A DNA stretch of 64,000 nucleotides from Helianthus annuus. Its lineage: Eukaryota; Streptophyta; Magnoliopsida; Asterales; Asteraceae. The position numbers and the translations under genes were made by a program. Below the pieces are notes generated by a model. It saw nothing but the letters and a program-made list of their open reading frames with translations. It ran no database searches and was not told the origin of the DNA. This document shows positions 17,264-64,000 of this stretch, in pieces. The stretch is taken from assembly GCF_002127325.2 (NCBI RefSeq), contig NC_035435.2, positions 109,970,517 to 110,034,516 of the forward strand, written 5' to 3'. Every line of letters begins with the position of its first letter. Position 1 is the first letter of the stretch.

Positions 17264-20200
17264 TGTAACACCTCGAAATTTTGCGTCCAATGATGTATTG
17301 ACACGTGTCATAGGTTTACACGTGGTAATAAATACTAATTAAAGGACTAGAGTTGACAAACATTGAAAGTATGTGAATTCGAGGGTTTGAAATGTCAACA
17401 AGGGATAAATATACTGTATAGTACCCCTAAATGATGCTCGTACCTTCAAACGAATAAATCATGGATCGTACGGAACGAGATATGGAAGAAAGCGAGAGAT
17501 TACAAACTACATGGGTTAAATGTGTCAACATGTTTAAGTTGTACCTCTGAGTGACCCTTTAACGAACCCGAGACTTTGTAACAGTAAATTACGCTCACTA
17601 GAATGTACGATATAAATTTCGCGAAGTTCCGTTTTAAAACGAGAAAGTTATGATCAAATTCGTATGCGAGGGGTTAAAAGCGTCAAACATTGAAAGTTAT
17701 GACTTTTCGGGTAATAATAAATTAACCAAGGGTTAATAAGTTGGGTAAAAGCCACGGGGCCCTTATTTGTAAATAAATAAGGCCCAAAACGCAAAGTTAC
17801 CCCTTCGAAACCGAAAGGCCATGGCAATAATTGCAAAAGATTTAAAAATATTGAAAAACAAGTCTCAGGCGGGCCGCGTTGAAGAAACAAAGGATCTTAC
17901 GCGGGCCGCGCGGGCAGTATAGATGCGGGCTCTGACATTAGGATTCAGGCGACCCGCGTAAGAGTTGATGTATCACTAACGCGGGCCGCATCAACCCCCC
18001 AGATGCAGAAAACGTGGACAGAAGCACTGTTTGGTGTTTTAACCGACCTTAGAGCCAATAATGAGAGTATGGGCGCCCCCTAAACGACCCCTAGCACCCA
18101 GGGACACTTGGTGATCATCCAAGAACACTTGTAGCCTTAGTTGTCAATGATCTAAGGTGTGAAGTTTACTATAAAAGGCCATTTAGTGCACCATTGTTCT
18201 TTACACCTTCAAACAACTCTTCTGATCATTCCTGGAGCTCAAATGCCTTCATCTCTCATCCCTAGTTGTGCATAGGACTCTTGTAAGTATGCTCCACCCT
18301 TTCTTGGTTAAGTTTTGCTTAGTTAAAGCCCAAAAGTCAATTCGTAATTAACGATTGACTTAACGATAAATCACAAATGGTCCAGTGGTTTGTCGAATCA
18401 AAGGTAGTTATATGTTGGTAATTATGTGGGCATTAAACCCCTAAAAGGGCACCCTCTGATTCCCACTCTAACTAGTCCAAATGTCGAGTCAAACTTGCTT
18501 AGAAAAAGTCAACAGAATGCTAAATTGCGATTTCATGCATAATCAGTAATGTAGATGGCGTGTAACCTATTTTAACACTCATATAACATGATAATAAGTA
18601 TATTAACTAGTCTAAGCTTGTTTGATCCGACCATTTACTGTTTTGACCCGGTTCGGAACCGAAAGTCGCAAAACTTTGACTTTTGCTTTAATTTCAGTTC
18701 TGACCCGTTATGGTATGATTTAGATATGCCTTAGGACTCTCTTAGGACCAGGTTACATGATGGTATAACCCTCTGTGACCGGTTCATCGTTTGTCCGAGT
18801 TTTTCACACATTTCCGTTAAAAGTTCAAAAGTTGACCATAACGCCCTTGTTACTTTAAAACGAGAAGTTTGGACATGTGAAAGGACAATAACCTTAGTTA
18901 CTAATTCTAAGCATGTCCCTAAAATTTCACGTCAATCCGGGGTCTAGAATAGGAGTTATGCTAAATAGCGCAATTACGGAAACTTTAGTAATTAAACGGC
19001 GCATTTAGCGTAAAACCTATCTAAACCCAAATTTTGACACCAAACCTTTTACACACTGATGTAAAATAATATTTTGGGATTTTTAAAGGTTTTTAATTAT
19101 TTTTAACCTGCTCATAACCTGCGGTTATGGCATCGATTCGGTAATTACCGAATATACCCTTTTCGGACATAACTTGAGTTCTACATGGTATTTTGACCCG
19201 ATTCCAGTTGCTACTGATTTTAAATAATAAATGGAGTATTTTGGACTTTATAAACTGTTCGGAAAACTCAGATTCCCTGTAGAACTCGGAAACCTCTTTT
19301 ATAATCTTTAAAAAGACCGAAATACCCCTACGGGGCGTATATTGGATTTAAACTCGTTATGGGCGTAAAGGAAGGTATCCTACTGATACCACAACCTCTT
19401 TAGAGCATAATAACTTAGGAAGCCTGTGTAGGACTCTTACGGTTACCCGTTACGCCATTTGCGCGCACGGTTCGGTTTATGTAACTAGTTTACATAAACT
19501 AGCCAAAACGGGTCAAGCCTTATCGTTTTTACTTCAAACTCCAGAGTGTGGTTATTATACCCATATAAAACAAGTCTTCAAACTTGTTGGGCCCAAACCA
19601 CATTCCATTCCTGGTTTTCGCTTTTCACGCGATTAAACCGTAATTATCCTTTGAAACTGACCGGTCTAAGCTAAGGCTAAATTAAAGACCCGTTAGGATT
19701 CTAATAGGTTGTTATAAACCTTCGTTCCAGAATAGGAGACCAGTAAAAGATACTTGCATTTGTTTGATTGAGGTTATTACTTGCTCAGGTAAATACTTTT
19801 AACTTATTTTCCGTTATACGGGCTTGGGTTACGGTATATAAAGATACCGCTTGGTCGGGCAATTGACCCAACTCATTAGTAGTTGGTTATTATCAATATG
19901 ACCCGTTTAAAAATTGGTTTTGTTGGCTTTACGCCTTAGGGAGCTTAATGACCATGTCCCGGATATCCTTGGCATCATTTTACGAAATGGCCACGACCCC
20001 GACACACGGGTGTAGGCGTACACCCGAAAATGTGTCTATATTATTAAAGGTATAACCGTTGGTTTTCCCGCCACGTCTTTATGCTTTGTGGCGTGTCTAT
20101 TAACCTTAAACCCGGCACGACTCGGGCGACCGAACGCTTAGTGAACATGTAATTCTTTTACAAGATTTAATTGATAAATTATCCCAACTTATAAAGAGTT

Positions 20201-20594
20201 TGTGCCTTGTGCATTCAAATCAATTTTATTAAACCTTTTTCAAAAGTGTCGGTTGAATGTATTTACCAGTGTAAACTGACGTATTTTCCCCAAAAGATTA
20301 AATGCAGGATCTACACGTAATAGGCTGGCCACTCCTTAGCATCGTTGGAGTCTCGCAAGCTTGGGATGCCAATATCTGATGAACAATATTTTATTTTTAT
20401 TTTTGATCCCCTGTGGATTCATTTCAACTACTTGTGATACTTGGATATTACATTTGATGGTTGAAATATAATCTATCTTTATGCTTCCACTGTGCATTTA
20501 AATATTGTGTGGTTTGACTATATTGTTGCCAACTACGTCACGGTAATCCCCCACCAGGCCCACCGGTGATACACGTGGAAATCGGGGTGTGACA
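17264..20594 (+). repeat. 5' LTR of Tekay-1
   Basis: This 3,331-bp LTR runs from TGTAACACC to GGTGTGACA and is nearly identical to 41190-44521. Two pairs of GC palindromes of the GCGGGCCGCG type lie at 17869-17910 and 17949-17989, 180-300 bp upstream of the TATA-type box. Confidence 0.95.
18169..18178 (+). promoter_or_regulatory. TATA-type box in the Tekay-1 5' LTR
   Basis: CTATAAAAGG is followed about 30 bp later by an ordinary transcribed-leader-like stretch. The 3' LTR copy is at 42094-42103. It is the best candidate for the element's core promoter; the start site was not determined. Confidence 0.65.
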
Positions 20595-20597
20595 GGT

Positions 20598-21645: not shown

Positions 21646-22819
21646 TGACGTGATGTCGTGGGTCACGCAAATTTAATCCCCAAACAACTATAGATAGTGG
21701 TAAGAGGGTATCAAACTCAGGGAGTATGTGGAAGGTATGTCAATTGTATAGCTTTGTACTTAAACTAAAATTAAACTAAATTGCAGAAATTAAAATTCAA
21801 GAGTTTGGATTGTTGTTTTAGAAAACTAAATTAAAAACTAATTTCAAATCAAATGTTGGTTGTAAAACAGATTAGGAGAGAACAATGATCACCTTAGGTT
21901 TCAGTTTCTTTAAACAATTGTGTGTAATTCCAACTAGAAAGAGTTACATAGACATAACTCGTGTATAGATGATTGAAGTGATAAAAGGGAACAAAGTACT
22001 CGGATTATATAAACGCGAGGTTGTTTCCCGATGACCAATTAATCAATAACCACCCCTAACCCTTCCTGTGATATCTCGATTGCCAACGGCACCAAGAACG
22101 TACGATTAAGACTAGAAATTGCAATATCGATTAACAAGTTACAAGCAATCAAACATACACCATGATATTCAAGCAACGCAAGTTATCATTCTAGAAATTC
22201 AGAAATAAAACACACAAAAGTTCAAGAAACTTTCACCTAAGATGATCACCGAAGAGTTTAGCCGGACATGGCTTGGTGAATCATCATCATAATCAAACCA
22301 ATGTTCATACGAATCGAAAATACAAACCGGATGATAGCAATTGTTCAAAACCAAGCAAAAACAGCAAAAATCGCCCCCAAGATGTTCTCCAACCGTCCAA
22401 TGATGAGGAATGATGAAAAGACACCATCAAACTACTTAATTGTGGCAGTTACATGTTTTCTCGCAGATTCCACCGTAATTTACGGCTCCACCGTAAATTA
22501 CGGTGGACAGTAAAATGTTACGGTGTGTAGAAGCTGTGTTACGGTGGGGAACATATGAAATCCAGGTCCACCGTAAATTACGGTAGGACCGTAATTTACG
22601 GTGGTGAGCGGACTTGTCTTCTTTGTTTTGTCTCTTGTTCCATGCTCGACCCGTTCATCACCAAAATCTCCAAAGCTGCATTTAATCCGTCTTTTAGCTC
22701 CCGAACCGCACCTGAAACATAAGCACAGTAGTTATCTAATTCAAGATAATTACACGATTAAGTGAAGGATTATTTCATCTTTTAACACGCTTAAGGGTTG
22801 TCCAATGGACCACCCGTCA
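21646..22819 (-). repeat. 3' LTR of the Athila-type element
   Basis: This 1,174-bp LTR carries two palindrome pairs of the CACCGTAAATTACGGTG type (about 22463-22500 and 22564-22604). It ends in TGACGTG on the plus strand and starts TGACGGGTGGTCC on the minus strand. Confidence 0.94.
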
Positions 22820-24120: not shown

Positions 24121-25839
24121 TTAATAGTAGCGCGGTCCTGGAGGTCCAAAGATGGATGACATCATATCATTCCATTCCCCAAATCCAAATGCACCGCTGC
24201 TACTCCCTCCTTCTTGTTGTGCTCCCTCTTGTTGCCTTGGGTCAAGCCATTGAGAATGGTGAAGTGGTGGAGTCGGATATGAAATGCTACCATCATAAGG
24301 CGGTAATGAGGCATAGTCCACATGTTGTGGATCCTTAACAACCGGCCTTCCGGCATGCCAATCCGCATGCATCCTCCTCGCCTGATCATCATGATATCTA
24401 TTATTAGTGTCCACTTCTCTAGAGTATGCGAAAGTACGGTTCCATGCCTCTTGGCGATCGAATCTATGTTTTAACGCCCGCTCTATACTTGCGCTATTCC
24501 TCGTGTTTTGATCATACAACGACCTCTCCGACCCCGACCATGTATCAAAAATAGATACCGGAGGACGTTGACTTTCAATCACCTCTTGCATTGTACCACT
24601 ATAAGCCCACCCCGGCTCATAAGATTGTTGCGCATAGTCATAGAACATACCACCGTGACCTCCACCATAACCCCCTTGACCCACATTCAAGTTCACCCCG
24701 CCTTGCGGTTGCTCCTCATAATCTTCATCCCCGCTTGGGATCTCTGCTTCACTCTCGGGTTCATCCTCTTCACCCGGTAACAAATCTCTCGCATTCGCCT
24801 TAAGAGCTCTCCACCTTTGGCCTTCCGACTTTAACTTGTGATAACGCTCCGTTTGAGTATACGTCCAAACATTCCCCAACTTATCCAACGTAAAAGGCTG
24901 GTGCCTTTTTGTTACCCCCCGATCTTCAGATGTTATCGCCTTCTGTTGTTTCATCAATCCCGTAATTATTCGACAATACGGGACGATGTCTCTTCCATAC
25001 TTATTCCGACAGATCCATAAGTGGTGCGTAATAAGGTAACGTATCGGGAAACATGGAGCCCCATGCATCAACGAATAAAGAACGGGTACCTCCGGAAACC
25101 TCACCTGTTCTTTGTCTCCCCTTCGTGGAAGGACATTGAGAAGACAGATTGTATGCAACAATTTAGCTTCTATCTTTAAATTCTTCCGGTATAGAATACC
25201 ACTGTATTTACCGGGTAAAAATATTGCTGCCAACATATCATTCCATCTAACATGTTTCTCCGGTTTGAGCAAGAGATCATCGAGAGTGGGAATCATGTAC
25301 TCACGAGCCGGGAGACTATCATACTTCCCGAGCTTCTTCAAAGTGTCGAATGACATCTCCACCGGTACCCCGTGTACCTCTCCAATCAACTTCATCTGTG
25401 ACGGCTTGTTAAAGTTGTGACATTTCAAGGTTGCCATCCACTCTTGTATCTCTGTCATGAACAGGTTACTCTTGTCTTTGTCGAAACATTTGAGCGCCGA
25501 TTCCCATCCTAGCGCCCGAAACTTATCAAACACCCCAAATTGCTGAAACTCCACTTCCCGAACCTCTCGTTCACAAATGAAGGCCGCCGCCTTGTTCTTC
25601 AACTTATTCATGCAGTCATGGTAAAGTGTCGGTTGCCACTCCTCTGCTTGATCATCTAATGGACCCGAATTCCACACCGGCTTTTCACTCGGATCCAACT
25701 CCATCTCTTCTTCACTCCCACTCTCGCTTTCACTTATACGACCCATATATTGCCTTTTTCGCGGTGGTTGTTCTTTTTGTTTGCCTTTCCCTTTTGATGA
25801 TGATGAACTCGATCCCGCTTGTTCCTTTGTCTTAGCCAT
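24121..25839 (-). CDS. Athila ORF in env position (PF03078-type, ATHILA ORF-1 family)
   Basis: This is an open frame of 572 residues starting with MAKTKEQAGSSSSSS. It has a Ser/Lys-rich basic N-terminus, a globular middle (about residues 60-330) with the arrangement seen in Athila ORF1 proteins (GWESALKCFDKDK, KHVRWNDMLAAIFLPG, LPRRGDKEQVRFPE, LITHHLWICRNKYG), an acidic patch (DEPESEAEIPSGDED) and a Gly/Tyr/Gln-rich C-terminus. It lies downstream of pol in the same orientation, 1.26 kb after the pol stop. I see no signal peptide and no transmembrane helix, so an envelope role is not supported. The function of this family is unknown. The frame is intact. Confidence 0.85.
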   Translation of the reverse strand: MAKTKEQAGSSSSSSKGKGKQKEQPPRKRQYMGRISESESGSEEEMELDPSEKPVWNSGPLDDQAEEWQPTLYHDCMNKLKNKAAAFICEREVREVEFQQFGVFDKFRALGWESALKCFDKDKSNLFMTEIQEWMATLKCHNFNKPSQMKLIGEVHGVPVEMSFDTLKKLGKYDSLPAREYMIPTLDDLLLKPEKHVRWNDMLAAIFLPGKYSGILYRKNLKIEAKLLHTICLLNVLPRRGDKEQVRFPEVPVLYSLMHGAPCFPIRYLITHHLWICRNKYGRDIVPYCRIITGLMKQQKAITSEDRGVTKRHQPFTLDKLGNVWTYTQTERYHKLKSEGQRWRALKANARDLLPGEEDEPESEAEIPSGDEDYEEQPQGGVNLNVGQGGYGGGHGGMFYDYAQQSYEPGWAYSGTMQEVIESQRPPVSIFDTWSGSERSLYDQNTRNSASIERALKHRFDRQEAWNRTFAYSREVDTNNRYHDDQARRMHADWHAGRPVVKDPQHVDYASLPPYDGSISYPTPPLHHSQWLDPRQQEGAQQEGGSSSGAFGFGEWNDMMSSIFGPPGPRYY

Positions 25840-27096
25840 TTCCTACACACATTAGACAAGCAACAAAAGCAAACACAAAATTAAACCCTCTTTTCCAAAA
25901 CATCCCCACACTTGCTTGTTATCATGGTTGTAGATGTTAGTGAACCAAAAGTATATCAAAAAATTTTTCAAAAATTGGGCATGGTGTCTCTACAATGTAA
26001 AGACACCCAAAAGTTCACTACTTTAACCACAAATCCTACATCTATAACCATATCTATGTTCAAATAATCAATTTCATAACCATATCTACAAACAAGCAAG
26101 TGAGTAAGAACAAATAACCTAGGTCACCTTACTTTTCACAATGTAGCATCAAAATCTAACAAATAAGCTTTCATACCTTTGTTTGAAGATGCACCAGTGC
26201 TTGTGAAACCCAAAACTCCAAAAACCCCCAAAAATCTCGAACTAGGGTTTGGGATTCGGACCCAAAGACAGTGTTTTCTCCTAAATCTCTCGTCAAAATC
26301 AACAAGCTTGTGAAAAATTAGTCAAGTTAGACTAAAATTTCACTTGATTTGGACAAAAATTGAAGGAATTATGGGAAGAAGAAGAAGATTATGGAGAGTT
26401 GTGATGGGGATGTGAAGAAGAAGATGGATGGATGTAGAGTGAAAAGAAATTGTGTGGTTGGGGTGAAGGCACGTGATTTTGTGTTTTATTATTATTATTT
26501 TTTATGTATAAACCGGATACCCAAACGACGGACATGAAAATTCCCCGCACCGTAAATTACGTTCTCACCGTAATTTACGGTGAAACCTGAACCTTTATTC
26601 TGTGCCGTAAATCAGTACTGAAATACCGTAAAACCCCAAAATTTCCTAGCTCCACCGTAAATTACGGTCTCACCGTAATTTACGGTGAGACCTGATCATT
26701 AAATTTTACCGTAAGTCAGTACTGTTTTACCGTAAATACCAACCATGATTCCTTTTCACCGTAAATTACGGTAGAACCGTAAATTACGGTGAACACTGGG
26801 CAACCCTGCTTTCGCTAAAAATTGAGATTTTAAGTGCAAATTTTTTAGATTTTTTTTAATTTTTTTTCGATTTTTTTATGTTTTTTTTTAATTTTTTTTT
26901 TCAAAAACTTGTAAAAATTACCCTACCCCCTCAAAAAATCCCGTGTTGTCCTCAACACAATGTTAGAGTAATTCGTGACCCGAACATCCCCACACTTGTT
27001 TCGAACACGGATTTCGAGGAACTATGGCAATTGTGCAAATTATACAAAACAAAACAAAACAAAATACTACTATATACACTACCGAACCTGGGCCTC
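25840..27096 (-). repeat. Non-coding spacer with paired CCGTAAATTACGG palindromes
   Basis: This region between the pol stop and the downstream ORF carries three pairs of CACCGTAAATTACGGT-type palindromes at about 26547-26583, 26651-26690 and 26757-26793. It also has single half-copies (ACCGTAA...AGTACTG) in between. The same motif pairs occur in the LTRs of this element. No gene was found. Confidence 0.8.
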
Positions 27097-30000
27097 TCAT
27101 GGTTGTTCTTCATCGACCGGGCGCAAGATGTAGCCCGCTTTGCCAAGCTCCAAGTTATTGATGTCGTTTCCCTCCAAGTACGGCTTCAAGCGGTGACCGT
27201 TCACCGTTTGTTGTTTCAATGTTTGCTCGTCTTGGATGTCTACATCACCAAATCGTCCAACTCTCCGAATGACATACGGACCCATCCATTTGCTTTTAAG
27301 CTTGCCCGCGAACATCTTCAATCGTGAGTTATACAACCAAACTTTCTGACCCACTTCGAACGTTTTCTTTCGCAATTTCGCATCATGCACTTTCTTGAGT
27401 TTATCTTTATAGGCCGATGCACATTCGTATGCCTCATCCCGAATCTCCTCTATCTCGCTCAATTGCAACTTTCTCAACTTACCCGCCTCATCATAATCCG
27501 CGTTGACCGTCTTGATTGCCCAATGTGCCCGATGCGCCAACTCCATTGGCAAGTGACAACCCTTACCATACACCATCCGGTAAGGTGTTGTACCAATAGG
27601 AGTCTTGTAGGCCGTTCGGTATGCCCACAAAGCATCATCTAACTTGCTCGACCAATCCTTTCTATCCGTTCTTACCGTCTTCATGAGGATCTCTTTGATT
27701 TGACGGTTGGACACTTCGACTTGTCCACTTGTTTGCGGATGGTAAGGTGTGGCAACTCGGTGGTTCACGCTATACCTCTTCAATAATTTCCCAAAGTTGA
27801 AGTTCTTGAAATGCGAACCACCATCGCTTATAATAACCCGCGGGATTCCAAAGCGAGAGAAGATGTTGGATTGAACAAATTTACAAACAACCGAATGGTC
27901 GTTTGTTCGTGTTGCAATAGCCTCAATCCACTTCGAGACATAATCCACCGCTACCAAAATGTATAGAAAGCCATTTGAATTCGGGAAGGGACCCATAAAA
28001 TCTATACCCCATACATCAAATATCTCCACAACCAAGATTGGTTGTAATGGCATCTCATCCCTTTTCGATATGCTTCCCATCTTTTGACAATTAATACAAT
28101 TTCTAGCGAACTTAATTGCATCCTTGAAAATGGTGGGCCAATAAAACCCACAAGAAAGAACCCGATAGCCTGTTTTGTGCCCACTAAAATGACCCCCACA
28201 TGCGGACGAATGAGCATGGGTCAAAATTTCCAACACTTCTGTTTCGGGCACGCACCTTCGTATAACTTGATCCGGTCCAATCTTGAAGAGATCCGGTTCA
28301 TCCCAAATGTATTGCTTCACTTGAACCATGAATTGTTGTCGACGCTTTTTGGTCCAATGACTTGGGATGGCACCCGTGGCTAAATAGTTGACATAATGAG
28401 CATACCACGGTGTAACGAAAGTGGAAACGGCTAAAAGTTGCTCATCAGGGAAACTTTCATTAATTTCACTCACATCATCGGTCCCTTCCACCGGAATCCG
28501 AGACAAGTGATCCGCTACTACATTCTCACTTCCCTTTTTATCTCGGATTTCTAGATCGAATTCTTGTAACAATAAAACCCACCGAATCAACCGTGGCTTC
28601 GCGTCCTTTTTCTCCATCAAGTACCGGACCGCACTATGATCCGAATAGACCACCACCTTGCTTCCCCAAATATACGAGCGAAACTTATCCAAAGCATACA
28701 CCACCGCTAGTAATTCCTTCTCGGTTGTGGTGTAATTAAGTTGCCCTTCGGATAAAGTTTTGCTTGCATAGTTAATAACCACCGGTTTCTTGTCAACCCG
28801 TTGACCCAAAACTGCACCAATAGTGGTGTCGCTCGCATCACACATTATCTCGAACGGCTTTGACCAATCGGGTGGTTGCAGAATAAGCGCCTTGACCAAA
28901 TGTTCCTTCAAAACAGTGAAAGCTTGCATACACTCGTTAGTAAAATCAAATGGGACATCTTTCAATAACAAGTTGCATAGGGGTTTGGTGATAACACTAA
29001 AACCCTTAATGAAACGTCTATAAAAACCCGCGTGTCCCAAGAATGACCTTACACCCTTAACATTTTTAGGAGGTGGCAAAGATGATATTACCCGTATCTT
29101 TGCCTTATCCACCTCCATCCCCCTTTCAGAAATCACATGGCCCAACACAATGCCCTCTTGCACCATGAAATGACTTTTCTCCCAACTTAACACTAAATTT
29201 TTCTCAACGCACCTTTTTAAAACCTTTTGTAATTCGTTGAGACAAGCATCAAAAGTAGTGCCAAAAATGGAGAAGTCATCCATAAATACTTCGAGCGACT
29301 CTCCAACCATGTCTGAGAAGATACTCATCATACATCGTTGGAAGGTTGCCGGAGCATTACACAAGCCAAATGGCATTCGCCGAAAGGCAAAGGTGCCATA
29401 TGGGCAAGTGAAGGTGGTCTTGTGTTGGTCATCCGGGTGTATGGCGATTTGATTGTAACCCGAATACCCATCTAAAAAGAAATAATATTTTTGACCCGAC
29501 AATTTTTCAATAATTTGGTCAATGAAAGGTAGCGGGAAATGGTCCTTAGAAGTGGCGGCATTCAATTTTCGGTAGTCAATACATACACGCCACCCGGTAA
29601 CCGGTCGGGTGGCAATTTGTTCACCACTTTCATCCTTGACCACTTGAATGCCGGCCTTCTTAGGCACAACTTGGGTGGGACTCACCCAAGCACTATCCGA
29701 AATTGGATAGATGATTCCCGCATCCAACCATTTAATTACCTCCTTTTTAACTACCTCCCTTAGGTTCGGGTTCAACCGCCTTTGAGCTTCTCGTGTCGGT
29801 TTGGCATCTTCGGTTGTGATGATCTTGTGCATGACAATTGATGGACTAATTCCTTTGAGATCGGCAATTGTCCATCCGATAGCTCCCTTGTTTTCCTTCA
29901 AGACTTCCAACAATGCTTGCTCTTGGGCCAACTCCAAATTAGAGGCAATAATGACCGGTAAAGTGTCATTATCCCCTAAAAACACATACTTCAAATGGCT

Positions 30001-31869
30001 CGGCAAGTCTTTGAGCTCCAACTTTGGCGGTTCCTCTAGTGATGGTTTAGTACCCGAGTCTATTTCCGCCGGTAGACCCTCGAATTGGTGGGTCCATGGT
30101 GGTCTACCTTCTTTCAACGCCATAGCATCTTGCGCTTCCTCTTCAACCCGGAGTGCATAAGCATGTACCTGTTCAGAAAAGTCACACAGGCAAATATCCA
30201 AACCATCCTCCTCATACTCATGCGGGTTGCATCCATCTACTATATCTGCCATGAAACACTCATCCACACCGTTAGCATTAGAATTATTAGTAAAAACATT
30301 CAAACGCATTTTTCTATTTCCAAAAGCCATATCAACTGTACCAAATCTACAATCAATAATAGCATGTGCGGTGCTTAAAAATGGCCGACCCAAAATTATA
30401 TTTTGTTGTTGCTTAGGGTCCGCCGATGAGTAATCCAAGACTAAGAAGTCCACCGGGTAATAAAACTCATCAATTTTCACAATTACATTTTGAACCATAC
30501 CCCGAGGCAACTTATGAGACAAATCGGCCAAAACAACCGTTGTCTCCACCCTTGCTAACGGACCAAAGTCATATTGGTCATATAAGCCCCCCGGTAAAAT
30601 GCTAACTCCGGCTCCAAGATCTAGCAACGCCTTAGCCATTTGAAAATTACCAACTTGTACATTAATCAATGGCGTGCCCGGATCTTGGAGCTTAGGAGGA
30701 AGCTCCCCATTTAACACCGCACTTACTTGCCCGGTTAAATCCACCCGCTTAGGCACTTTCTTCTTGTTTTGCCTTTTTTGTGTACATAATTCTTTTAAGA
30801 ATTTTGCATAAGCGGGGACTTGTTTTATTGCATCGAGGAGTGGGAGATTTATTTTTACTTGTTTAAACATATCCCACATCTCCTCTTTTTGAGGACCCCT
30901 CGACACAATAAAATTTTTCTTTCCCGGGTCAAGTAAGGCCGATGGAAACGGAACTTGACTCGGTTCACCCTCAACTTTTTCATTCTTTTCATCTTCACCC
31001 AAACCCGGTTTTTTAACAATTGTTTCTTTTAGTTTAACCGGTGAAATTTCATCATCACTTTCAATTCCCGTGACATCCTCAACTACCCCCTCAACCAATT
31101 CGGGTGACAAATTGGCTTTAAATTCTTTCCCACTTCTTAATACACTAACATGATTAATATTAACATTACCTCGTGACGAACCATGTGAAGGGTTTACCTT
31201 AGTGTCGCTTGGAAGTTGACCCTTACCTTTCTTCAATTCCGCCACATCGGTTGCTAATTGACCCATTTGGGTTGTTAGTGATTGGATGCTTTTATCACGA
31301 ACCTCATCCTTTTGCATTCGCACTTCATCAAGTTGGTTCCGTTTTTGCATCTCCATTTGCATGCTCTTTAGCATCTCCATCATCTCATTTCCACCCGAAG
31401 ACCCCCCTTGTTCTTGACCCGTTTGGTATTGCTTTTGATAACCTTGGTTATTTCCGCCTCGGTATCCACCTTGGTTATTGTAAGATTGGCGTGAACCAAA
31501 GTTACCTTGGCTACCTTGAAAATTCGGGTTTGCTTGATTTGAAGGGTTCCCATATCTAAAATTCGGGTGGTTCCTCAACCCGGGGTGGTAGGTATTAGAG
31601 TTCATGTTGTTGTAGTTCCTACCACCTCCTCCTTGACCTTGACCTTGAAGCGCATGGACTTCCTCGTATTGCCCGTCCAACATCCCTTGGCAATTTTCAG
31701 CCGCATGACCTATTTCATTACATAAAGCACAAACATCATATATTTGGTTAGTGGTTTGAACATTACCATCATCTATAGCGTGCACTTGAGGTCGGGTAGT
31801 GGTCGGTCGGGCTCTTCTTGAAGCTTGAGCTTTCCTCTTTGATGTAGTTGCCATGCTTTCCAAGAACAA
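27097..31869 (-). CDS. Athila gag C-terminal part plus pol polyprotein
   Basis: This is a 1,590-residue open frame. In order: a basic region; one CCHC zinc knuckle (C47, C50, H55, C60); an aspartic protease with the Athila-type DLGA core in [13 protein letters not shown]; a reverse transcriptase with VCIDYRKLN and the catalytic FMDDF (M at about residue 863, near 29283); RNase H beginning at [16 protein letters not shown]; an integrase with an H-H-C-C finger (CINCQKMG) and the D, D, E residues in [18 protein letters not shown] and [10 protein letters not shown]; and a C-terminal [12 protein letters not shown] domain without a chromodomain. The N-terminal half of gag is missing from this frame: a partial LTR and PBS stand in its place, and the first residues (MFLES) come from the joint. 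The polymerase domains look complete, so they could act in trans if expressed. Confidence 0.92.
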
Positions 31870-48118: not shown

Positions 48119-48393
48119 CACAAGGATTTTAAGAAAGTTAGGAATCAACGGCCTAATCATTTTTTTATTTTTTTTAGGATTTTCTTAAATTTTTCAGCTT
48201 CTTCAGAACTCAGCACGGGCCGTGCCCGCTGAACACGCCCCGTGCCCAAATCATTGGAACTGGCAATCTTGTTTTAAGTCAGACAGTAAGCTGAACACGG
48301 TGCCGTGTTCACTCAACACACCCCCATGCCCAAGATTCAGTTACTGAAAACAGAACCGTTAGATCCCGGCGGTTGGTAATTTCTGACACAAAC

Positions 48394-49062: not shown

Positions 49063-49586
49063 GACAGCTTCCAGACACGGGGCCGTGTCCAGGTCAGCAC
49101 GCCCTCGTGCCCACCTAAAAGATTCTCTGCTGATTTTGTCAGAATACGGACAAAATGTGTCAGGATTTTAACTGCACACGGGGCCGTGTCCAACCAACAC
49201 GGGGCCATGTCCAGCGCGCTGTCGTTTTCTTTAAATGCAGCCTGATTCCTGCTCATTTTTAACCACTTCAAAAGACAGAGATTCCTGGGATCTTCACTCA
49301 TACTATCCTAGGTAAGTTCTAAAAGAAGGTTCCAAAGAACCCTCTTGTCTTTTCCACTTTTATTCATTGCCTCCTCTTTCAATTTTTTTTCAAACATTTC
49401 CTCCATGAAAGCTTGGAAACTCCATGATTCCAACCTTTAATGTGAAGTTTGTAAGGTTATTATCTAAGGAATCTTACTTAAAATTAGTTGTATAACTTTG
49501 TTTTAAATTATCTGTGCTTAATACTCGGCTAAAAACCATAAAAATAATTTAAAACTCCAAGATTCCTTAGTCTAAAATCCTGCAGA
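49063..49586 (+). other. LTR-C spacer with a candidate intron
   Basis: No gene was found. The spacer contains four CACGGGGCCGTG-type palindromes in two pairs (about 49073-49115 and 49175-49215). A donor-like AG/GTAAGTTCT at 49310-49320 and an acceptor-like CTGCAG ending 49586 would allow splicing into ORF2. This is a suggestion only. Confidence 0.45.
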
Positions 49587-49943
49587 CAAGTGGACACGGC
49601 GCCGTGCTCAGCGAGCACGGGGCCGTGTCCGAGGTTCTGTTTCCTGAAGATTGAACTCTCTTCGGTCTATTTCCCAGAAATAGCAAGCAGAACAAGCGGA
49701 ACGTCTTCATCAAGAAATAACCGACAGGGGAGGAGATCATCAACGGCGGAAGACTCTCTTGTAAACTATGTTTACGCCCTAAGAGAGGCTATTGATGAAA
49801 TGACGGGGATGGAAGAAGCATTGGTCGACCGTATCAACCATCTGACGGTGGGACTGGAAGGATGTCTCCGAGAGGTAAACCTCTTGCACCAGAGGTTAAA
49901 CCTTCTCGCCTCTCCCCCTTTGGTACCTATAATAAACCAAAGG

Positions 49944-51401
49944 TATAACAACCCTAACGTAAACCGACATCCTTGAATATTTTTCCGACACCCTATTATT
50001 TGAAATATCCCGATATGTCTTATATTACACCCCGTATATGAAAACCAAGCCCGAAATACGTTATAGTTTATAAAAATAAAATAAAAATCTAAATTTAGAG
50101 CTGAGGCGGGCCGCGTAGGATCCCACCTCAAGCTCACGCGGGCTATATGAGAGCACTAACCGGACTCCGCTGAATTCTTTAGTTCAAGCGGGCCGCGTAA
50201 GCTTAAGCTTGCATTAACGCGGGCCGCGCGGACTCATAAAACGCGGATACATCTGGTGCTGACACGTGTCGACATCGTGTCAAGCCTAGTGGTGACCCAG
50301 CCAAGCTATGCGTTGACCCAGCGTTGACGCGGGCCGTGTGAGCTTGGCCTGTTCTTTACGCGGGCCGCGTGGAGACCAGATTTCAGCCCGATATAAGAAG
50401 GCAATGGGCCTTTAGTTCCGATCGTCCATTTCTTTCTTTCAATCTAAATTTCTGAAGTAGAGTTATTATACTCGGGCATTATACCCCCTAAATAGCGAGG
50501 TTCTGCTACGATGTAAGTATTATAACCCCTGGAGACGTATTAGATACGCTGCCCGATTGATCTAGGGTTCCGTAACGGCTGTCGTGGTTCTGCCCGACGT
50601 AGTCGTTGGAATGCCGTCTCGGGGAGGGTATTACTAATGTTAAAATGGGTTATTATACTAACATACGTGCATTTGTGTAATTTATAGATTTTCACCAGGA
50701 AACCTTAAAGAGTAATCTAAGACAGCAATGTGAGTGATCCTTCTTTTTATGAACTCATTTTTGTGAGTTGATCCACTTTTTGTTTACTATTTTTACAAAA
50801 CCTCACTAAATTAAATATATAAAAAGCAGTTATTGAGTATTTGTAAGAATACAATTATAGTGGGTATGTTGGGGTTTTGTATACAAAATTGGTTACTGGC
50901 GTGGTAACATCCCATAAGTTGAGTATGACCGTACCACTGATGTTAATTGTGATGTCTTGGAAACAAATGTAATTGCGGATGTGCCCTCAATACTGCAAAT
51001 TGGTCTTATTTAAACTTGATTAAACTGGGATTCACTCACCAGTATTTCCACTAACAAAATGTTTTTAAAACGCGTTTCAGGTAACAAAATGTGAAAGCCA
51101 AATAGAACCCAGCTGGACAGCACTGAAGGCTTGGAAAAGTGACAATAAAGTTACCTAAAAAGAAATAGATGTTTTTCCTAAATAAAATAGGGTGTACCCC
51201 TATGAAATTATATGTAATGAAAACTTGGGTTTTACCCATGTGTTTAATATTATAAAATGTGGTGGTTTACTCTGATAACATATTTCCTAACTACGGTCCT
51301 GATGAAAATTTCCGCTGCCGAATTGGATAAATAAACGTGATACCACCGAAACTGGCTCGCGGCCGCCCGTTCCCGGGAACTAGGGATTGGGGGTTGTGAC
51401 A
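49944..51401 (+). repeat. LTR 1 of Tekay-2
   Basis: This 1,458-bp LTR ends GGGGGTTGTGACA. Six GCGGGCCGCG-type words lie between 50106 and 50370 in pairs about 20-30 bp apart, directly upstream of a TATA-like GATATAAG (50390-50397). The middle LTR has the better TATA (CTATATAAG). Confidence 0.93.
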
Positions 51402-57127: not shown

Positions 57128-58598
57128 TATAATAACCCTAACGTAAACCGACACCCTTGAATATTTTTCCAACACCCTATTATATTGAAATATTCCGATA
57201 TGTCTTATATTACACCCCGTATATGAAAACCAAGCCTGAAATACGTTATAGTTTATAAAAATAAAATAAAAATCTAAATTCAGAGCTGAGGCGGGCCTAG
57301 TAGGATCCCACCTCAAGCTCACGCGGGCCGTATGAGAGCACTAAACGGACTCCGCTGAATTCTTTAGTTCAAGCGGGCCGCGTAAGCTTAAGCTTGCATT
57401 AACGCGGGCCGCGCGGACTCATAAAACGCGGATACATCCGGTGCTGACACATGTCGACATCGTGTCAAGCCTAGTGGTGACCCAGCCAAGCTACACGTTG
57501 ACCCAGCGTTGACGCGGGCCGCGTGAGCTTGGCCTGTTCTTTACGCGGGCCGCGTGGAGACCAGATTTCAGCCCTATATAAGAAGGCAACGGGCCTTCAG
57601 TTCCGATCGTCCATTTCTTTCTTTCAATCTAAATTTCTGAAGTAGAGTTATTATACCCGGGCATTATACCCCCTAAATAGTGAGGTTCTGCTACGATGTA
57701 AGTATTATAACCCCTGGAGACGTATTAGATACGTTGCCCGATTGATCTAGGGTTCCGTAACGGCTGTCGTGGTTCTGCCCGACGTAGTCGTTGGAATGCC
57801 GTCTCGGGGAGGGTATTACTAATGTTAAAATGGGTTATTATACTAACATACGTGCATTTGTGTAATTTATAGATTTTCACCAGGAAACCTTAAAAAGTAA
57901 TCTAAGACAGCAATGTGAGTGATCCTTCTTTTTATGAACTCATTTTTGTGAGTTGATCCACTTTTTGTAAACCTTTTTGTTTACTATTTTTACAAAACCT
58001 CACTAAATGAAATATATAAAAAGCAGTTATTGAGTATTTGTAAGAATACAATTATAGTGGGTACGTTGGGGTTTTGTATACAAAATTGGTTACTGGCGTG
58101 GTAACATCCCATAAGTTGAGTATGACCGTACCACTGATGTTAATTGTGATGTCTTGGAAACAAATGTAATTGCGGATGTGCCCTCAATACTGCAAATTGG
58201 TTTTATTTAAACTTGATTAAACTGGGATTCACTCACCAGTATTTCCACTGACAAAATGTTTTTAAAACGCGTTTCAGGTAACAAAATGTGAAAGCCAAAT
58301 AGAAGCCACCTGGACAGCACTGAAGGCTTGGAAAAGTGGCAATAAAGTTACCTAAAAAGAAATAGATGTTTTTCATAAATAAAATAGGGTGTACCCCTAT
58401 GAAATTATATGTACTGAAAACTTGGGTTTTACCCATGTGTTTAATATTATAAAATGTGGTGGTTTACTCTGATAACATATTTCCTAACTACGGTCCTGAT
58501 GAAAATTTCCGCTGCCAAATTGGATAAATAAACGTGATACCACCGAAACTGGCTCGCGGCCGCCCGTTCCCGGGAACTAGGGATCGGGGGTTGTGACA
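57128..58598 (+). repeat. LTR 2 (middle) of Tekay-2
   Basis: This 1,471-bp LTR serves as 3' LTR of body 1 and 5' LTR of body 2. It has a TATA box CTATATAAG at 57574-57582 and the same palindrome cluster (about 57290-57555). It has a 15-nt extra stretch near 57968-57982 compared with LTR 1. Confidence 0.93.
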
Positions 58599-58603
58599 GA
58601 AGG

Positions 58604-59611: not shown

Positions 59612-59885
59612 ATCGATTGTGGAGACGGTAGTAGTAATAATAATAATAAAATAATATATGTGTGTATGTGTTAGAAAAAAAAACTACGGATGCATACTAC
59701 TAGTATTGTAGCTTTACATTTCAGTCGGTATTGTAATTTTAAATTCAGTACTAGTGTGTAATGATGCATAATATACGAATAGAGTAAAATTCGCAATGCT
59801 CGACGCTTTTGGCTAAAAGTGTGTGTCATGTGATTATTCAAATATTATTTGTGATATTAATATTTGGTAAATGTTTAAAATTCAG

Positions 59886-60551: not shown

Positions 60552-61041
60552 TGACCACAAGTCGGGTTGACAGTACCGTGGGTGGTAATTGAATAGATGG
60601 AAACAAATGTAATTGCGCGACCGCCCTCAATACTGTACAATGGTCTTTATTAAACTTGATTAAACTGGGATTCACTCACCAGTATTTCCCACTGACAAAA
60701 TGTTTTTAAACGCGTTTTAGGTAACAAAATGTGAAAGCCAAATAGAAGTCAGCTGGACAGCACTGAAGGCTTGGAAAAGTGGCAATAAAGTTACCTAAAA
60801 AGAAATTGATGTTTTTCTTAAATAAAATAGGGTGTACCCCTATGAAATTATATGTACTGAAAACTTGGGTTTTACCCATGTGTTTAATATTATAAAATGT
60901 GGTGGTTTACTCTGATAACATATTTCCTAACTACGGTCCTGATGAAAATTTCCGCTGCCAAATTGGATAAATAAACGTGATACCACCGAAACTGGCTCGC
61001 GGCCGCCCGTTCCCTGGAACTAGGGATCGGGGGTTGTGACA
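60552..61041 (+). repeat. LTR 3 (partial) of Tekay-2
   Basis: This is about 490 bp matching the 3' third of LTRs 1 and 2 (from near 50915 to 51401). Its first 90 bp are clearly more diverged than the rest. It ends GTTGTGACA next to the AAAGG duplication. Confidence 0.85.
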
Positions 61042-61220
61042 AAAGGGCATGGAACGTGGTCCCCGAAGTCATCATACCCGCCGAATGGTACGACATACAA
61101 CCGAAGCCTCCGCGAGGGATAGTACGAGGAGTCCCGGTGGTTGTTCCCCCTGCTCCGCAAGATGTTGAGGAAAATGAAGCCACCTTCTTCCTTCCAAGGG
61201 AGATAGAAGAATGGCTTTAA

Positions 61221-63108
61221 CAACATCTAGGAAGAAAAAAAAAACCATCGGCCAAGAGTCCTACTACATCGGGAAACTATTCCCGAAATTTTCTTAACAA
61301 AAAAGTAGAACTCGTTATGATAACTTTGTGTACCTCCTGACCTAATTAGTTAAGTTTTTCTTTTATTTCTTTTTATTTTTAGGAACGTTATGTAAGATCT
61401 CTCTATGGTTTTAATGAAATGATGGTTTTAAGGTGATGTTGAAATAAATAAAACACACTCATGGTGGTCAAGGATGACAAGGGAAACGAGAAACATAGCC
61501 CCATGCACAAAAAAAGGCCATCCGACAACAATTTCTCCATTACAGTAAGCTCAGCACGGGCCGTGCCCAGCCAACACGGCCCCGTGCTGAACATCCTGCA
61601 GACAAATGCCCAGTTCAGGTAACTGGACACGGGCCGTGTTCATCGAACACGCCCCCGTGTCCGGGCTTCTGTTTCTTTTCTTTAATTATTTTTACTGGCA
61701 CCTGAACACGGGGCCGTGCCCGGTCACCACGGGGCCGTGTCCAGACTGCCAGTAACCTAAAATTTTGCTTTTAACACCATTTTGCACATTCAATCAACCT
61801 AAAAATTTATTTTTTTGGAAACATTGAGGACAATGTGTAATTTAAGTGTGGGGGGGATGCTAAAACCTTGAATTTTGCAAGTCCTAATAACAAGCCTTAC
61901 ACAAAACTCTATTGGAACCGCTAATCACCCCAAATTTTTTTCAAAAATTTTCATTTTTTTTTTCTACTTGTCTAAGTTTAAGTTGGGAATTCTAAGACTA
62001 ACAAGGCTATATTTTTATAAGTTTACAACAGATAGCGTCGTGATAAAAAGAACCAACATAAGAAAATTATGAAACGGCATGACAAGCTTAGTTAAAATTT
62101 GATTATATATACTTGATTACATAAAAAACCCATTCCCACAAAAGTGAGTTTTGAGCCTTTCTTGAGCATACAAATATACATCTTTACGTTAAATGCTCAT
62201 TTTTCGTTTCTTGTGTGAATAGCCGCTTGGTTCTTACGACTCTAGAACTTGCCACGACAATTCATTCCCGGTCCTTACCAACTTAAACCCAAGTAAGTAA
62301 ATGATGGAGGCATTAGGACTAACCCTTTTTCTTTGAACACCATTATTTTTATTTTACTTTTCACCTACCCAAAAATTCCCCCTAGTTAGCCCGTTTGAGC
62401 CTAAACTTTTTCATTTCTTAACCCAAAACCCTTTTTACCCACCAAAAACCCTTTTTATTTTTACCTTTTATTTTAGTAACAAGCTCGGTCTTCGTGTGAC
62501 TAAATATATATATATATTACAATGAAGTTTGAAATAAACAAACAAAGCTCCTCAAACAAAAGTTTGTTTCAATAAATACTTCATTGAAAATAAAAAGTCA
62601 CAAAAACAAAATGTTTTACGAAAACCGACGCTTTTTACGTTTTTTGCCCTTTTCTACTAACCACTAACCCAACCACCCACCTTTAGCCCAAGCCTAACCC
62701 TTCACCCAAAAAGTCCTCTTGATATTTACAAAGGTATAAAGTTAAAAAGGAGGAGGATTGATTGCTTGGCAAGCTTATGGTAGGAATAAGTTCCATGCCG
62801 CTCTCGAGTGATTCACTAAAAAAAATTACACCTTCGGCCGAGTGTGAGTGATTTCTCCCGTGAGGTATGTGAACTTGTATATAAATGAAATTTTAGAAAG
62901 GTATGTTATGCCTTAATAAATAATTTACCTTATGAAAAGTTTTTAATAAATCATGACGAATAGGATTGTAAATAAGTAAAAATAAAACCTAAACAATCTT
63001 GGAAAATCCTGACACTCTATGACAAGCCCAAAACCTTCTCTTCTACCCATTCCATTTGGAAGTGTAAGCCACATATTAAAGAGTTTTGCTTGAGGACAAG
63101 CAAAAATT
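61221..63108 (+). other. 3' internal region of LTR-C
   Basis: No gene was found. The region contains six CACGGGGCCGTG-type palindromes in three pairs (about 61551-61590, 61623-61665 and 61703-61742), a TA microsatellite (62505-62518), an imperfect hairpin (62519-62587) and AT-rich sequence to the polypurine tract. Confidence 0.65.
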
Positions 63109-63124
63109 AAAGTGTGGGGATATT
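63109..63124 (+). other. Polypurine tract of LTR-C
   Basis: AAAGTGTGGGGATATT precedes the 3' LTR. It is very similar to the Athila polypurine tract (AAGTGTGGGGATG), supporting shared ancestry. Confidence 0.82.
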
Positions 63125-64000
63125 TGATGTGTGTAAAATGCAACATATAAATTACATCAAATGAGGCATAAAACTAACCCTTTTTAAGTACTAATGTTGG
63201 AAAAAGTGTGTTTTTGTCTTCCTTTTGTATTTTCAGGATTAAATGAGCTCAAATTAACAAAAGAAGCAAAAAGACAGCTAAATCTAATATAAATACAAGA
63301 AAGGGAACAAAAGTGGACTGCCCGACCCCTCGACAGCATCCTCCCAAGCAAAACAGAGAAGGCAGAAGACTGAACACGCCCCGTGCTCAGCGAGCACGGG
63401 GCCGTGCCCAAGAAGCAGCAGAAAAGACAAACCTGTAGAAGCTTCTATTGCTCACCACGGGGCTGTGCCCAGTGAACACGGGGGCGTGCCATAGTATCAG
63501 ACGGGCACGGGGCCATGCCCAGGCTTCTTTTCAGCCTATAAATAGGAGTGCTTGGAGCCATTGCAACTCATCCCTTGGCACACCACCTCTCTCACACTTT
63601 ATCCACCACCCACCACCATCACAACACCATCATCCACCATCATCATCCATTGTCCATCATAGAGTGTGTGAGTCGTCTCGGGATCCAAGATTGATCGTAA
63701 GAGTTCTTGACAATCAAGGCCATGTTTGCCTAAGTCTCTTACATCACTTGGTGAAGACAAGTGTTTAGTATAATACTTTTTATTTTTAATCTTTTGCACT
63801 TTTTAATTGGTTTTGTATTAATGACTTTAATAACTAGTTGCTTATGTTGAAGGTGATTCTTCCTTATCGTTTGTCTGTGGTGTCTTGGCATTATTTTACT
63901 GTCTATATAAAATAAAAGATTTTCACCATTCATATCTCCACGGTCTATATGGAGGTATGTTGGCTACCTGGTCGTGGGTTAAGGGAACGGTTTGGTAAGG
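63125..64000 (+). repeat. 3' LTR of LTR-C, truncated by the window
   Basis: It matches 46507 onward. Its palindrome array has five members (63372-63520) against four in the 5' LTR, because an extra segment of about 29 bp is present near 63490-63520. The TATA-type box is at 63537-63546. Confidence 0.92.

Follow-up and report, generated by a model that had tools for sequence, protein, structure and literature searches.

Palindrome Pairs in the Window

In a 64-kb stretch of sunflower (Helianthus annuus) DNA, hereafter the window, four LTR retrotransposons carry short palindromes, most of them in pairs, and this raises the question of what such pairs do and why they take a similar place in elements whose palindromes differ in sequence. 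The elements and their landmarks are as follows:

17264..20594 (+): Tekay-1 5' LTR (self-BLAST, termini)
17867..17991 (+): Tekay-1 palindrome cluster, 5' LTR; pairs 17867/17899 and 17947/17979, pitch 32
18170..18177 (+): Tekay-1 TATA TATAAAAG, 178 free bases past the cluster
41190-44521 (+): Tekay-1 3' LTR, 98.6% identical to the 5' LTR (self-BLAST)
41793..41917 (+): copy of the Tekay-1 cluster in the 3' LTR; TATA at 42095
21646..22819 (-): Athila 3' LTR, the element lying on the minus strand (self-BLAST, termini)
22472..22602 (no strand): Athila U3 module, 3' LTR; pair 22472/22490, half-sites 22518 and 22539 (21 bp apart), pair 22570/22588, both pairs at a pitch of 18 bp
24124..25842 (-): Athila env-like ORF, 573 aa (weak Pfam match and Helianthus relatives)
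26503..26510 (-): TATACATA, 38 free bases beyond the Athila pre-env array on the element's strand
26549..26790 (no strand): Athila pre-env array, three pairs within a 104-bp tandem repeat (26549/26567, 26654/26672, 26758/26776; all 18 bp)
27100..31869 (-): Athila pol (RT, RNase H, integrase; Pfam)
34141-35307 (-): Athila 5' LTR
34967..35097 (no strand): copy of the U3 module in the Athila 5' LTR
46507..48094 (+): LTR-C 5' LTR (self-BLAST, termini)
46757..46870 (+): LTR-C U3 pairs 46757/46777 and 46838/46859
46890..46897 (+): LTR-C TATA TATAAATA, 19 free bases past the cluster
48214..48328 (+): LTR-C leader pairs 48214/48234 and 48296/48317, the degenerate partner at 48317 identified by eye
49076..49627 (+): LTR-C internal pairs 49076/49098, 49177/49198 and 49595/49616
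61555..61739 (+): LTR-C internal pairs 61555/61575, 61628/61648 and 61707/61728
from 63125 (+): LTR-C 3' LTR, running off the window end
63375..63517 (+): palindromes of the LTR-C 3' LTR, one of which (63506) is unpaired
49944..51401 (+): Tekay-2 first LTR (self-BLAST)
50104..50370 (+): Tekay-2 U3 cluster, first LTR; three pairs, pitch 31-32 (50104/50136, second member degenerate; 50186/50217; 50327/50358)
57128-58598 (+): Tekay-2 second LTR
57289..57555 (+): copy of the Tekay-2 U3 cluster in the second LTR; TATATAAG at 57575

The palindromes GCGGGCCGCG, CACGGGGCCGTG and ACCGTAAATTACGGT are present in the window as 11, 12 and 10 exact copies, respectively, and each gives 0 matches in 100 dinucleotide shuffles of the window. 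The short, mostly paired palindromes described in an earlier sequence-only reading are thus real, and their pairs have a family-specific pitch: 18 bp in Athila (5/5), 20-22 bp in LTR-C (10/10) and 31-32 bp in Tekay-1 and Tekay-2 (5/5). The core is CGG-N1-CCG in Tekay and CGG-N1/2-CCG in LTR-C, and CGG-N5-CCG spans the Athila pairs. The observed/expected CpG ratio of the U3 is 1.18 in Tekay-1, 1.39 in Tekay-2, 1.07 in Athila and 0.52 in LTR-C.

When the copies of one palindrome are counted per region against 200 shuffles, in 7 target and 12 control regions, the target level is matched by only 0-6 of the 200 shuffles in all 7 target regions; one of the 12 controls (14000-17000) also gives 0/200. 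This control region is another palindrome array. A weaker measure, counting single perfect palindromes, gives p values of 0.056 for the Tekay-1 U3 and 0.09 for the LTR-C U3, and control 1400-12000 is itself enriched for them (72 vs 44, p 0.016). CGG/CCG dyads are not enriched in the Tekay-1 U3 (p 0.35), and two control regions are enriched.

The clusters had been placed 15-180 bp upstream of a TATA box in three of the four families, and this is indeed their position: 19 free bases separate them in LTR-C, 178 in Tekay-1, and 21 (5' LTR, TATA-like TATAAG at 50392) or 19 (3' LTR) in Tekay-2, while TATA[AT]A is absent within 400 bases downstream of the palindromes in the Athila U3. The clusters also lie in LTRs, as had been claimed, but not exclusively, 8/10 LTR-C pairs and 3/5 Athila pairs being internal. 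The internal Athila array, which includes isolated half-sites at 26625, 26708 and 26729, is situated between the pol end (27100) and the start of the env-like ORF (25842), whose match to Pfam Transposase_32 scores 43.5 bits, below the cutoff of 45. An ORF downstream of a palindrome cluster and a TATA at another locus (L017) shows no similarity to the Athila env-like protein.

Once inserted, the palindromes change more quickly than the remainder of the LTRs (12/237 vs 86/6565 positions differing between paired LTRs), which corresponds to the ordinary CG transition rate (6/98 vs 26/441). Compensatory changes after insertion are rejected, none being found in the paired-LTR comparison. Compensation between arms, which the sequence-only reading had set as a test, is therefore missing after insertion, but paired palindromes do covary at their centres between copies (see below). 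Post-insertion decay says nothing either way on the function of the source copies.

Fixed Spacing across the Sunflower Genome

At least 9,507 exact Tekay-type pairs and at least 6,271 exact Athila-type pairs are found in the sunflower genome, the reversed-pattern controls giving 0 in both cases. Among 100 Tekay-type pairs listed, with gaps of 0-30 allowed, the gap is 18 in 71, 19 in 27 and 17 in 2, and the linkers, of constant length, comprise 79 distinct sequences in 39 similarity clusters. Of 50 Athila-type pairs listed, 43 have a gap of 3, 6 a gap of 4 and 1 a gap of 8. In a grid sample of 200 kb of the genome (640 sampled segments in 20 stretches), palindrome clusters are present in 31/640 segments (12/20 stretches), mirror-symmetric motifs in 6/640 (5 stretches), and shuffles give 0 in 8 rounds of 640; of the 15 stretch-motif combinations, 8 contain CGG or CCG. 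Palindromes that differ in sequence but take a similar place are thus a real feature of the window and recur across the genome. Repetition of just any symmetric motif is rejected as a general account by the excess of palindromic over mirror-symmetric segments. Chance or base composition is likewise ruled out as the source of the palindromes, which stand far above shuffles in the window, in the recurrence test and in the grid, a comparison that the earlier reading had called for. Among viral contigs, neither protein comparison nor the pattern of the Tekay pairs finds plant relatives. Two matches to the Athila box are seen in viral contigs.

The palindromes could be functionless by-products of mutation, generated by tandem duplication, unequal recombination or template switching at inverted repeats. 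LTR-C provides evidence of this kind: palindrome number varies by whole units among its copies (the inverted copy has five, arranged as a 21-bp tandem, where the two LTRs have two), a deletion in the 5' LTR extends from one palindrome to the next, and the linkers are mutually alike (0/2000 shuffles as high), as are some flanks, so that duplication accounts for part of the LTR-C repetition. The 104-bp tandem array before the Athila env-like ORF points in the same direction. The by-product explanation is nevertheless improbable, as it is opposed by a gap that stays fixed across 79 different Tekay-type linkers among the matches listed, by the position of the palindromes 5' of TATA and before env, and by the contrast between conserved boxes and diverged linkers in LTRs otherwise unalignable. 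As for the self-spreading units once suggested, local recombination and duplication in LTR-C are in their favour, and nothing beyond that is supported. An extra unpaired palindrome adjoins the TATA both in the LTR-C 3' LTR and in the inverted copy. Directly after the 5' LTR end of LTR-C (48094) lies TGGCGCCGTTGCCGGGGA, a putative tRNA-Asp-type primer site of the Athila type; LTR-C has no recognisable domain, and its sole ORF (255 aa) is without Pfam match. It may be an Athila-like element that is non-autonomous.

A Module Common to Two Lineages

A module of ~130 bp, composed of a pair, two half-sites 21-22 bp apart and a second pair, is common to Athila LTRs and to tRNA-Met-primed LTRs of chromovirus type, the assignment of the latter to chromoviruses being partly proven. 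When Athila is compared with the others over 13 modules, identity reaches 0.93 in the palindromes and 0.97 in the half-sites, versus 0.47 in the linkers, 0.37 in the loops and 0.39 in the 100-bp flanks, with linker lengths of 13-14, 14-15 and 21-24. The isolated half-sites, though not palindromes, are thus kept as well as the palindromes. The 40-bp flanks are slightly above shuffled (0.40-0.42 vs 0.35-0.36; 0, 0 and 8 of 300 shuffles), and therefore either the module is slightly blurred at its edges or the shuffle is not strict enough. The convergent use initially put forward is not the whole account, as the Athila-type module recurs in chromovirus-type LTRs and the Tekay-1 and Tekay-2 clusters are colinear with each other.

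The module is oriented against transcription in the Athila U3 and with transcription in L008, L028, L031, L033 and L037, i.e., in 5/6 non-Athila loci whose module orientation is readable; the exception, L021, is of ambiguous strand. This mixed orientation may fit an orientation-independent enhancer. In the first 300 bases downstream of the module, TATA[AT]A is absent in the Athila U3 and in 7/10 other loci (L008, L031, L032, L033, L035, L036 and L037); it is found at 11 bases in L034 and 67 in L028, and in L021 depending on the strand chosen. The R-U5 of L021 is Tekay-1-like, the likeness starting abruptly at L021:5000 (Tekay-1 LTR position 1393); this part may belong to another insertion, and a swap of the module onto a Tekay-1-like LTR backbone is not established.

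The module might also be a small MITE-like transposable unit inserting into LTRs, with the terminal pairs as inverted repeats. Its ends are indeed inverted repeats of ~33 bp, and it occurs in LTRs without other similarity by BLAST, but no target-site duplication is apparent by eye in the flanks, the module has a similar place in LTRs of related loci, its two internal half-sites are conserved and before the Athila env-like ORF it takes the form of a tandem array, which makes this origin most improbable. For palindromes as insertion targets, just a weak preference is reported (PMC6911290).

Symmetry of the Athila-Type Pairs

Hairpins, formed by RNA, cruciform DNA or single-stranded cDNA, could alternatively be the functional unit and serve RNA processing, reverse transcription or host small RNAs. 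The Athila-type pairs are inverted repeats, usually with 15-nt arms and a 3-nt loop, and their centres are complementary in 24/25 aligned pairs, in 48/50 of the genome pairs listed and in 26/26 pairs of the 13 modules, where RM1-RM4 and RM2-RM3 centres match in 5/13 each. Both-side changes at the centre number 6 among 20 distinct rows (0/500 shuffles as high). The RNA folding z-score is -8.1 to -9.8 for the Athila clusters and -7.3 for one LTR-C cluster, and small RNAs are drawn to palindromic clusters in maize Sireviruses (Bousios et al., 2016, as cited in PMC10760457).

The covariation is, however, confined to one column pair, and two further measures are at shuffle level (pairs with both-side change, 447/500; further pair types, 235/500). 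T/A centre pairs may moreover be inverted A/T pairs, in which case the count of independent double changes is too high, and pair 26758/26776 of the pre-env array is not complementary. The Tekay-type pairs are direct, with G at the centre of both members in 4/5 window pairs, their linkers vary at constant length and their folding z-score is just -2.0 to -3.2, one of five control regions giving -4.0. The conservation of isolated half-sites also argues against hairpins. As a general explanation, hairpins are thus unlikely, although for the Athila type a constraint by hairpins is still a competing explanation.

Proposed Function and Relation to Known Systems

The reading that we favour, with a probability of roughly two in three, is that the palindrome pairs are cis-regulatory U3 enhancer modules of Ty3/gypsy LTR retrotransposons for a putative dimeric host factor, resembling the repeated motif (RM) of Sireviruses. 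U3 sites for a dimeric factor had already been suggested for this locus and are retained as the best, sequence-derived reading. Each palindrome would provide two half-sites for the putative DNA-binding factor, and the working unit would be two palindromes at a fixed pitch, which equals roughly two turns of the helix in LTR-C and three in Tekay and is 18 bp in Athila, possibly bound cooperatively. Clusters of such units would activate the promoter of the LTR and, in Athila, also a second one ahead of the env-like gene. The location of palindromes 5' of TATA in 3/4 window elements, and of the Athila cluster between pol and the env-like ORF, speaks for this enhancer function, as do the rigid genome-wide geometry of the pairs, the boxes and isolated half-sites conserved beside diverged linkers, the orientation of the module and the cluster excess in the grid sample; against it, a simple pair of dimer sites does not need the inverted symmetry of the Athila-type pairs, 18 bp does not amount to complete turns of the helix, and most module loci have no TATA[AT]A in the 300 bases downstream. 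The exact inverted relation within these pairs would best be accounted for by copying from a hairpin template at a site under selection. LBD proteins bind GCGGCG and, as dimers, discriminate palindromes (PMC10118128), but their candidacy as the factor is not established.

A bolder and rather doubtful possibility is that sunflower LTR retrotransposons share a pool of enhancer cassettes that can stand in for one another. The 130-bp one, of nearly base-exact geometry, would have passed between Athila and chromovirus lineages and would work either way round, and hairpin-templated copying at replication would preserve the identity of its inverted pairs.

The earlier reading was aware of no described common mechanism, but the RM class is already documented. 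In Sireviruses (Ty1/copia), CGG-CCG palindromes form a cluster in the LTR 5' of TATA, which constitutes a CpG island, with an extra cluster before the envelope gene in env-bearing elements and a minimum of 8 copies per element, counted over the 3' LTR and linker (Bousios et al., 2010; PMC2829016). The elements studied here likewise have dyad-symmetric palindromes in many near-identical copies, a CGG-CCG core in Tekay, in LTR-C and across the Athila pairs, and an Athila array between pol and the env-like ORF that recalls the pre-envelope cluster; placement by TATA is comparable in LTR-C and Tekay-2, more distant in Tekay-1 and without TATA in the Athila U3. CGGT-N3-ACCG is held by the Athila pairs as by Osr10 CGGTCTGACCG, Osr8 CGGTCAGACCG and Barbara TCGGTCYCACCGA (PMC2829016, Table 3), and the Athila box CACCG-N7-CGGTG equals the OPIE-2 box in outer arms and length. 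Palindromic motifs are also clustered in the cis-region of maize Sirevirus LTRs (Bousios et al., 2016, as cited in PMC10760457), and repeated, partly symmetric activator elements are found in the U3 of Tnt1 (PMC2829016, PMC3601003).

The differences are equally clear. RM is called Sirevirus-specific relative to classic Ty1/copia (PMC2829016), whereas the hosts are here Ty3/gypsy: the frames searched contain RVT_1, RVP_2, Retrotrans_gag and Ty3 capsid domains and no copia-type domain. A rigid family-specific pitch, half-sites and a module common to lineages set our elements apart from RM as described in PMC2829016. One LTR plus the internal region contains 20 copies in LTR-C, 10 in Athila, 6 in Tekay-2 and 4 in Tekay-1, Tekay being below the RM minimum. 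Tnt1 is a tobacco Ty1/copia element, for which fixed-pitch palindrome pairs are not described in the accessible parts of PMC2829016 and PMC3601003. A literature search, with most subscription papers outside its reach, returned no account of such modules in gypsy elements.

Significance

RM has been presented as a peculiarity of a single Ty1/copia genus and without a known factor (PMC2829016). That an RM-like layout also occurs in Ty3/gypsy elements, where thousands of copies keep a single spacing, makes the host-factor question open to a direct binding experiment. A module common to lineages with otherwise unalignable LTRs would suggest that the regulatory parts of retroelements are mobile, or arise anew, without their genes. 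If the cassettes are truly interchangeable, competition between retroelement lineages would proceed by exchange of switches, all responding to the same host factor.

Palindromes recur, and are paired, in four nested elements

The window consists of nested LTR retrotransposons; the names Tekay and Athila are those of the sequence-only reading, and the Pfam basis here is Ty3/gypsy-type domains. Its four palindrome-bearing elements are as follows.

17264-20594 and 41190-44521: LTRs of Tekay-1
21646-22819 and 34141-35307, minus strand: LTRs of the Athila element, nested inside Tekay-1
46507-48094 and from 63125: LTRs of LTR-C
49944-61041: Tekay-2, nested inside LTR-C

Tekay-2 is arranged as LTR, internal region, LTR, partial internal region and truncated third LTR (60598-61041), and is bounded by a single target-site duplication, AAAGG (49939-49943 and 61042-61046), i.e., it is a tandem element carrying three copies of the LTR. 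The env-like protein of Athila is 92% identical to one Helianthus annuus protein and, beside gag in the same element, 31880-32540 has about 74% similarity to a portion of its own LTR. The window itself starts with a 673-bp direct repeat (1-673 and 724-1396, 99.1%).

The three palindromes described in the sequence-only reading are genuine, being present in 11, 12 and 10 exact copies and in none of 100 shuffles. They are also paired, as it had noted for most of them. When near copies are included (mostly with at most 2 mismatches, 3 at a few Tekay sites, and two partners recognized by eye), every copy accepted within these elements belongs to a pair, except unpaired LTR-C ones, found beside the TATA box in the 3' LTR and in an inverted LTR-C copy (12043-13763). 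The pitch, or start-to-start distance within a pair, is 18 bp in 5/5 Athila pairs, 20-22 bp in 10/10 LTR-C pairs and 31-32 bp in 5/5 pairs of Tekay-1 and Tekay-2, with one degenerate partner in each of the latter two sets. The leader or internal region contains 8/10 LTR-C pairs, and 3/5 Athila pairs are located between pol and the env-like ORF. The inverted LTR-C relative has five palindromes as a 21-bp tandem where both LTRs have two, and the LTR-C 5' LTR carries a deletion spanning from one palindrome to the next.

Recurrence was measured as the highest copy number of any one palindrome per region. For the seven target regions, it was matched in 2, 0, 0, 0, 6, 0 and 0 out of 200 shuffles. 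Among twelve control regions, 14000-17000 stood at 0/200 and the remaining eleven at 13/200 or more. A further palindrome array, ATATCGGCGATAT, is located outside the four elements at 15303-15440 (5 copies in 14000-17000, 0/200 shuffles). Counts of single perfect palindromes are suggestive only (Tekay-1, p 0.056; LTR-C U3, p 0.09), control 1400-12000 being likewise enriched (72 vs 44, p 0.016); CGG/CCG dyads are not enriched in the Tekay-1 U3 (p 0.35), while two controls are.

Pair spacing is rigid, with varied linkers, in the genome pairs listed

Pairs of the Tekay and Athila types are abundant in the sunflower genome, all counts being lower bounds that include many mutually related copies. 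The Tekay-type pair, GCGGGCCGCGT and ACGCGGGCCGC at most 30 bp apart, is found at least 4,853 times forward and at least 4,654 times in reverse (reversed-pattern control, 0). The 100 places listed are the first ones of contig C1; their gaps are 18 in 71, 19 in 27 and 17 in 2, and the linkers comprise 79 distinct sequences in 39 clusters at 70% identity. Athila-type pairs number at least 6,271 (control, 0), and among 50 listed ones the gap is 3 in 43, 4 in 6 and 8 in 1. For the single box ACCGTAAATTACGGT, there are at least 16,266 places, vs a comparison count of 29; at 90 of the first 100, an exact partner lies no more than 30 bp away, and 44/45 neighbouring couples are oppositely oriented.

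In a local alignment, the U3 regions of Tekay-1 and Tekay-2 match at the cluster (score 36 vs at most 34 in 300 shuffles), where two pairs are colinear; palindrome-free pieces give a best score of 22. The second colinear pair is separated from the TATA box by 178 (Tekay-1) and 162 (Tekay-2) free bases. Three further Tekay-1-type clusters from the grid described below have a TATA box at 179, 187 and 179 bases (L019, L020 and L025), and another grid locus, L024, has two clusters, one of them Tekay-2-type, with TATA at 19 bases.

Twenty 10-kb stretches of the genome, forming an unselected grid of 640 windows, were searched for at least 4 copies of one palindrome, found in 31/640 windows and 12/20 stretches. 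Mirror-symmetric motifs reached this number in 6/640 windows (5 stretches), and eight shuffling rounds gave 0. By manual count, CGG or CCG is present in 8 of the fifteen stretch-motif combinations, among which TGATGTCATCA, TATCCTGGATA, GTACTTAGTAC and CGCACGCGCGTGCG are doubtful motifs, the last overlapping another one. One locus with a Ty1/copia gag (Retrotran_gag_2; L029:1802-2650) has 7 ATTTCGCACGAAAT copies, the last 9 bases before TATA, and 13 more past the primer site at 2162. In L016 (9637-9762), CTTACGGACCGTAAG, the Athila TTACGG half-site in everted order, occurs four times in a stretch that also has RT and integrase domains of gypsy type.

Paired LTRs differ at 12/237 palindrome positions vs 86/6565 elsewhere, with CG transitions at 6/98 sites inside palindromes and 26/441 outside (CHH outside, 25/1774). 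Inserted copies thus appear to decay like methylated DNA, so that it must be the source copies from which the sharp between-family conservation stems.

A module is shared by Athila and other LTRs

Of the Athila-type loci outside the window, L003 and L006 proved to be LTRs of Athila (85% to that of the window) and L004 an Athila pre-env array, i.e., the palindromes between pol and the env-like ORF. In L008 (partner LTR, L010), L028 and L031-L037, the BLAST match to the Athila LTR is the palindrome region alone, over 38-145 bp; L021 has the same arrangement, yet no BLAST match to the Athila LTR. The coding capacity of L033 and L037 includes gag and RVP_2 with Ty3 capsid, L031 contains the end of an integrase and a weak chromodomain match (22.5 bits, cutoff 25.1), and an exact tRNA-Met primer site is present in L008, L028 and L037; L032, L034, L035 and L036 are grouped with L008 by nucleotide similarity alone.

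All 13 distinct modules examined consist of a pair, a half-site (an isolated palindrome arm), a second half-site 21-22 bp further and another pair, with linkers of 13-14, 14-15 and 21-24. Duplicates or loci of another type were left out (the second Athila LTR of the window, L004, L005, L007, L009 and L010). As L031-L036 were picked for two close pairs (at least 3 exact boxes), their two pairs are ascertained by this choice, in contrast to their half-sites and linker lengths. When Athila is compared with the other modules, identity reaches 0.93 for palindromes and 0.97 for half-sites, vs 0.47 for linkers, 0.37 for loops and 0.39 for the 100-bp flanks. Since linkers (0.39-0.45 vs 0.31-0.32) and, less so, 40-bp flanks (0.40-0.42 vs 0.35-0.36) exceed shuffles, common descent or exchange is likelier than pure convergence; because of these flanks, the module borders do not appear perfectly sharp. 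The module is oriented against transcription in the Athila U3, and with it in 5/6 other loci of readable strand (exception, L021). L021 aside, L034 and L028 are the sole loci among these with TATA[AT]A at most 300 bases downstream of the module.

Centres of Athila-type pairs are inverted

In 26/26 pairs of the 13 modules, the two palindromes are reverse-complementary to each other at the free central base. The centres are likewise complementary in 24/25 pairs of an overlapping set, with three pre-env pairs added and L003 and L021 removed (exception, 26758/26776), and in 48 of the 50 genome pairs listed. They are A/T, T/A or C/G, with a between-pair match in just 5/13. Paired palindromes thus covary between copies at these central bases: over 20 distinct rows, paired cells, both-side changes and covariation score are each reached by 0/500 shuffles. 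Two further measures are at shuffle level, pairs with a both-side change (1; 447/500) and further pair types (3; 235/500), because almost all variation is confined to one column pair. Inverted centres would suit hairpins, or template-switch copying at hairpins, and not a plain tandem copy. Tekay pairs do not have this relation, both members having a central G in 4/5 window pairs, and LTR-C centres are mixed. RNA folding is strong in the clusters of Athila, with z from -8.1 to -9.8, and in a single LTR-C cluster, with -7.3; it is weak elsewhere (-2.0 to -3.2), one of five controls reaching -4.0.

Candidate enhancer modules related to Sirevirus motifs

We propose that the palindrome clusters are U3 enhancer modules, which would be read by a putative dimeric host factor. 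In PMC2829016, a comparable role is proposed, not proven, for the Sirevirus RMs, the CGG-CCG palindromic repeated motifs of these Ty1/copia elements. Its Table 3 gives CGGT-N3-ACCG in Osr10, Osr8 and Barbara, the very form made by the Athila pair across its 3-base loop.

Downstream of the Athila pre-env array, TATACATA, a pyrimidine-rich stretch, an intron-like GT...AG and the env-like ATG can be read, a layout consistent with a putative second promoter. L017 (2223-8019) could be a second case of a putative promoter before a downstream ORF: after an integrase frame come palindrome pairs with a pitch of 20, a TATA box 31 bases further and an ORF of 525 aa, which has no Pfam match and does not resemble the env-like protein of Athila. 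This locus also contains four more pairs, spaced 102-104 bp apart.

The palindrome pairs are not a new kind, their described relative being the Sirevirus RMs. What is new, as far as the literature was searched, is the occurrence of palindrome clusters of this kind in Ty3/gypsy lineages, the fixed pairing of palindromes, pair centres that covary, and a module common to Athila and chromovirus-type LTRs.
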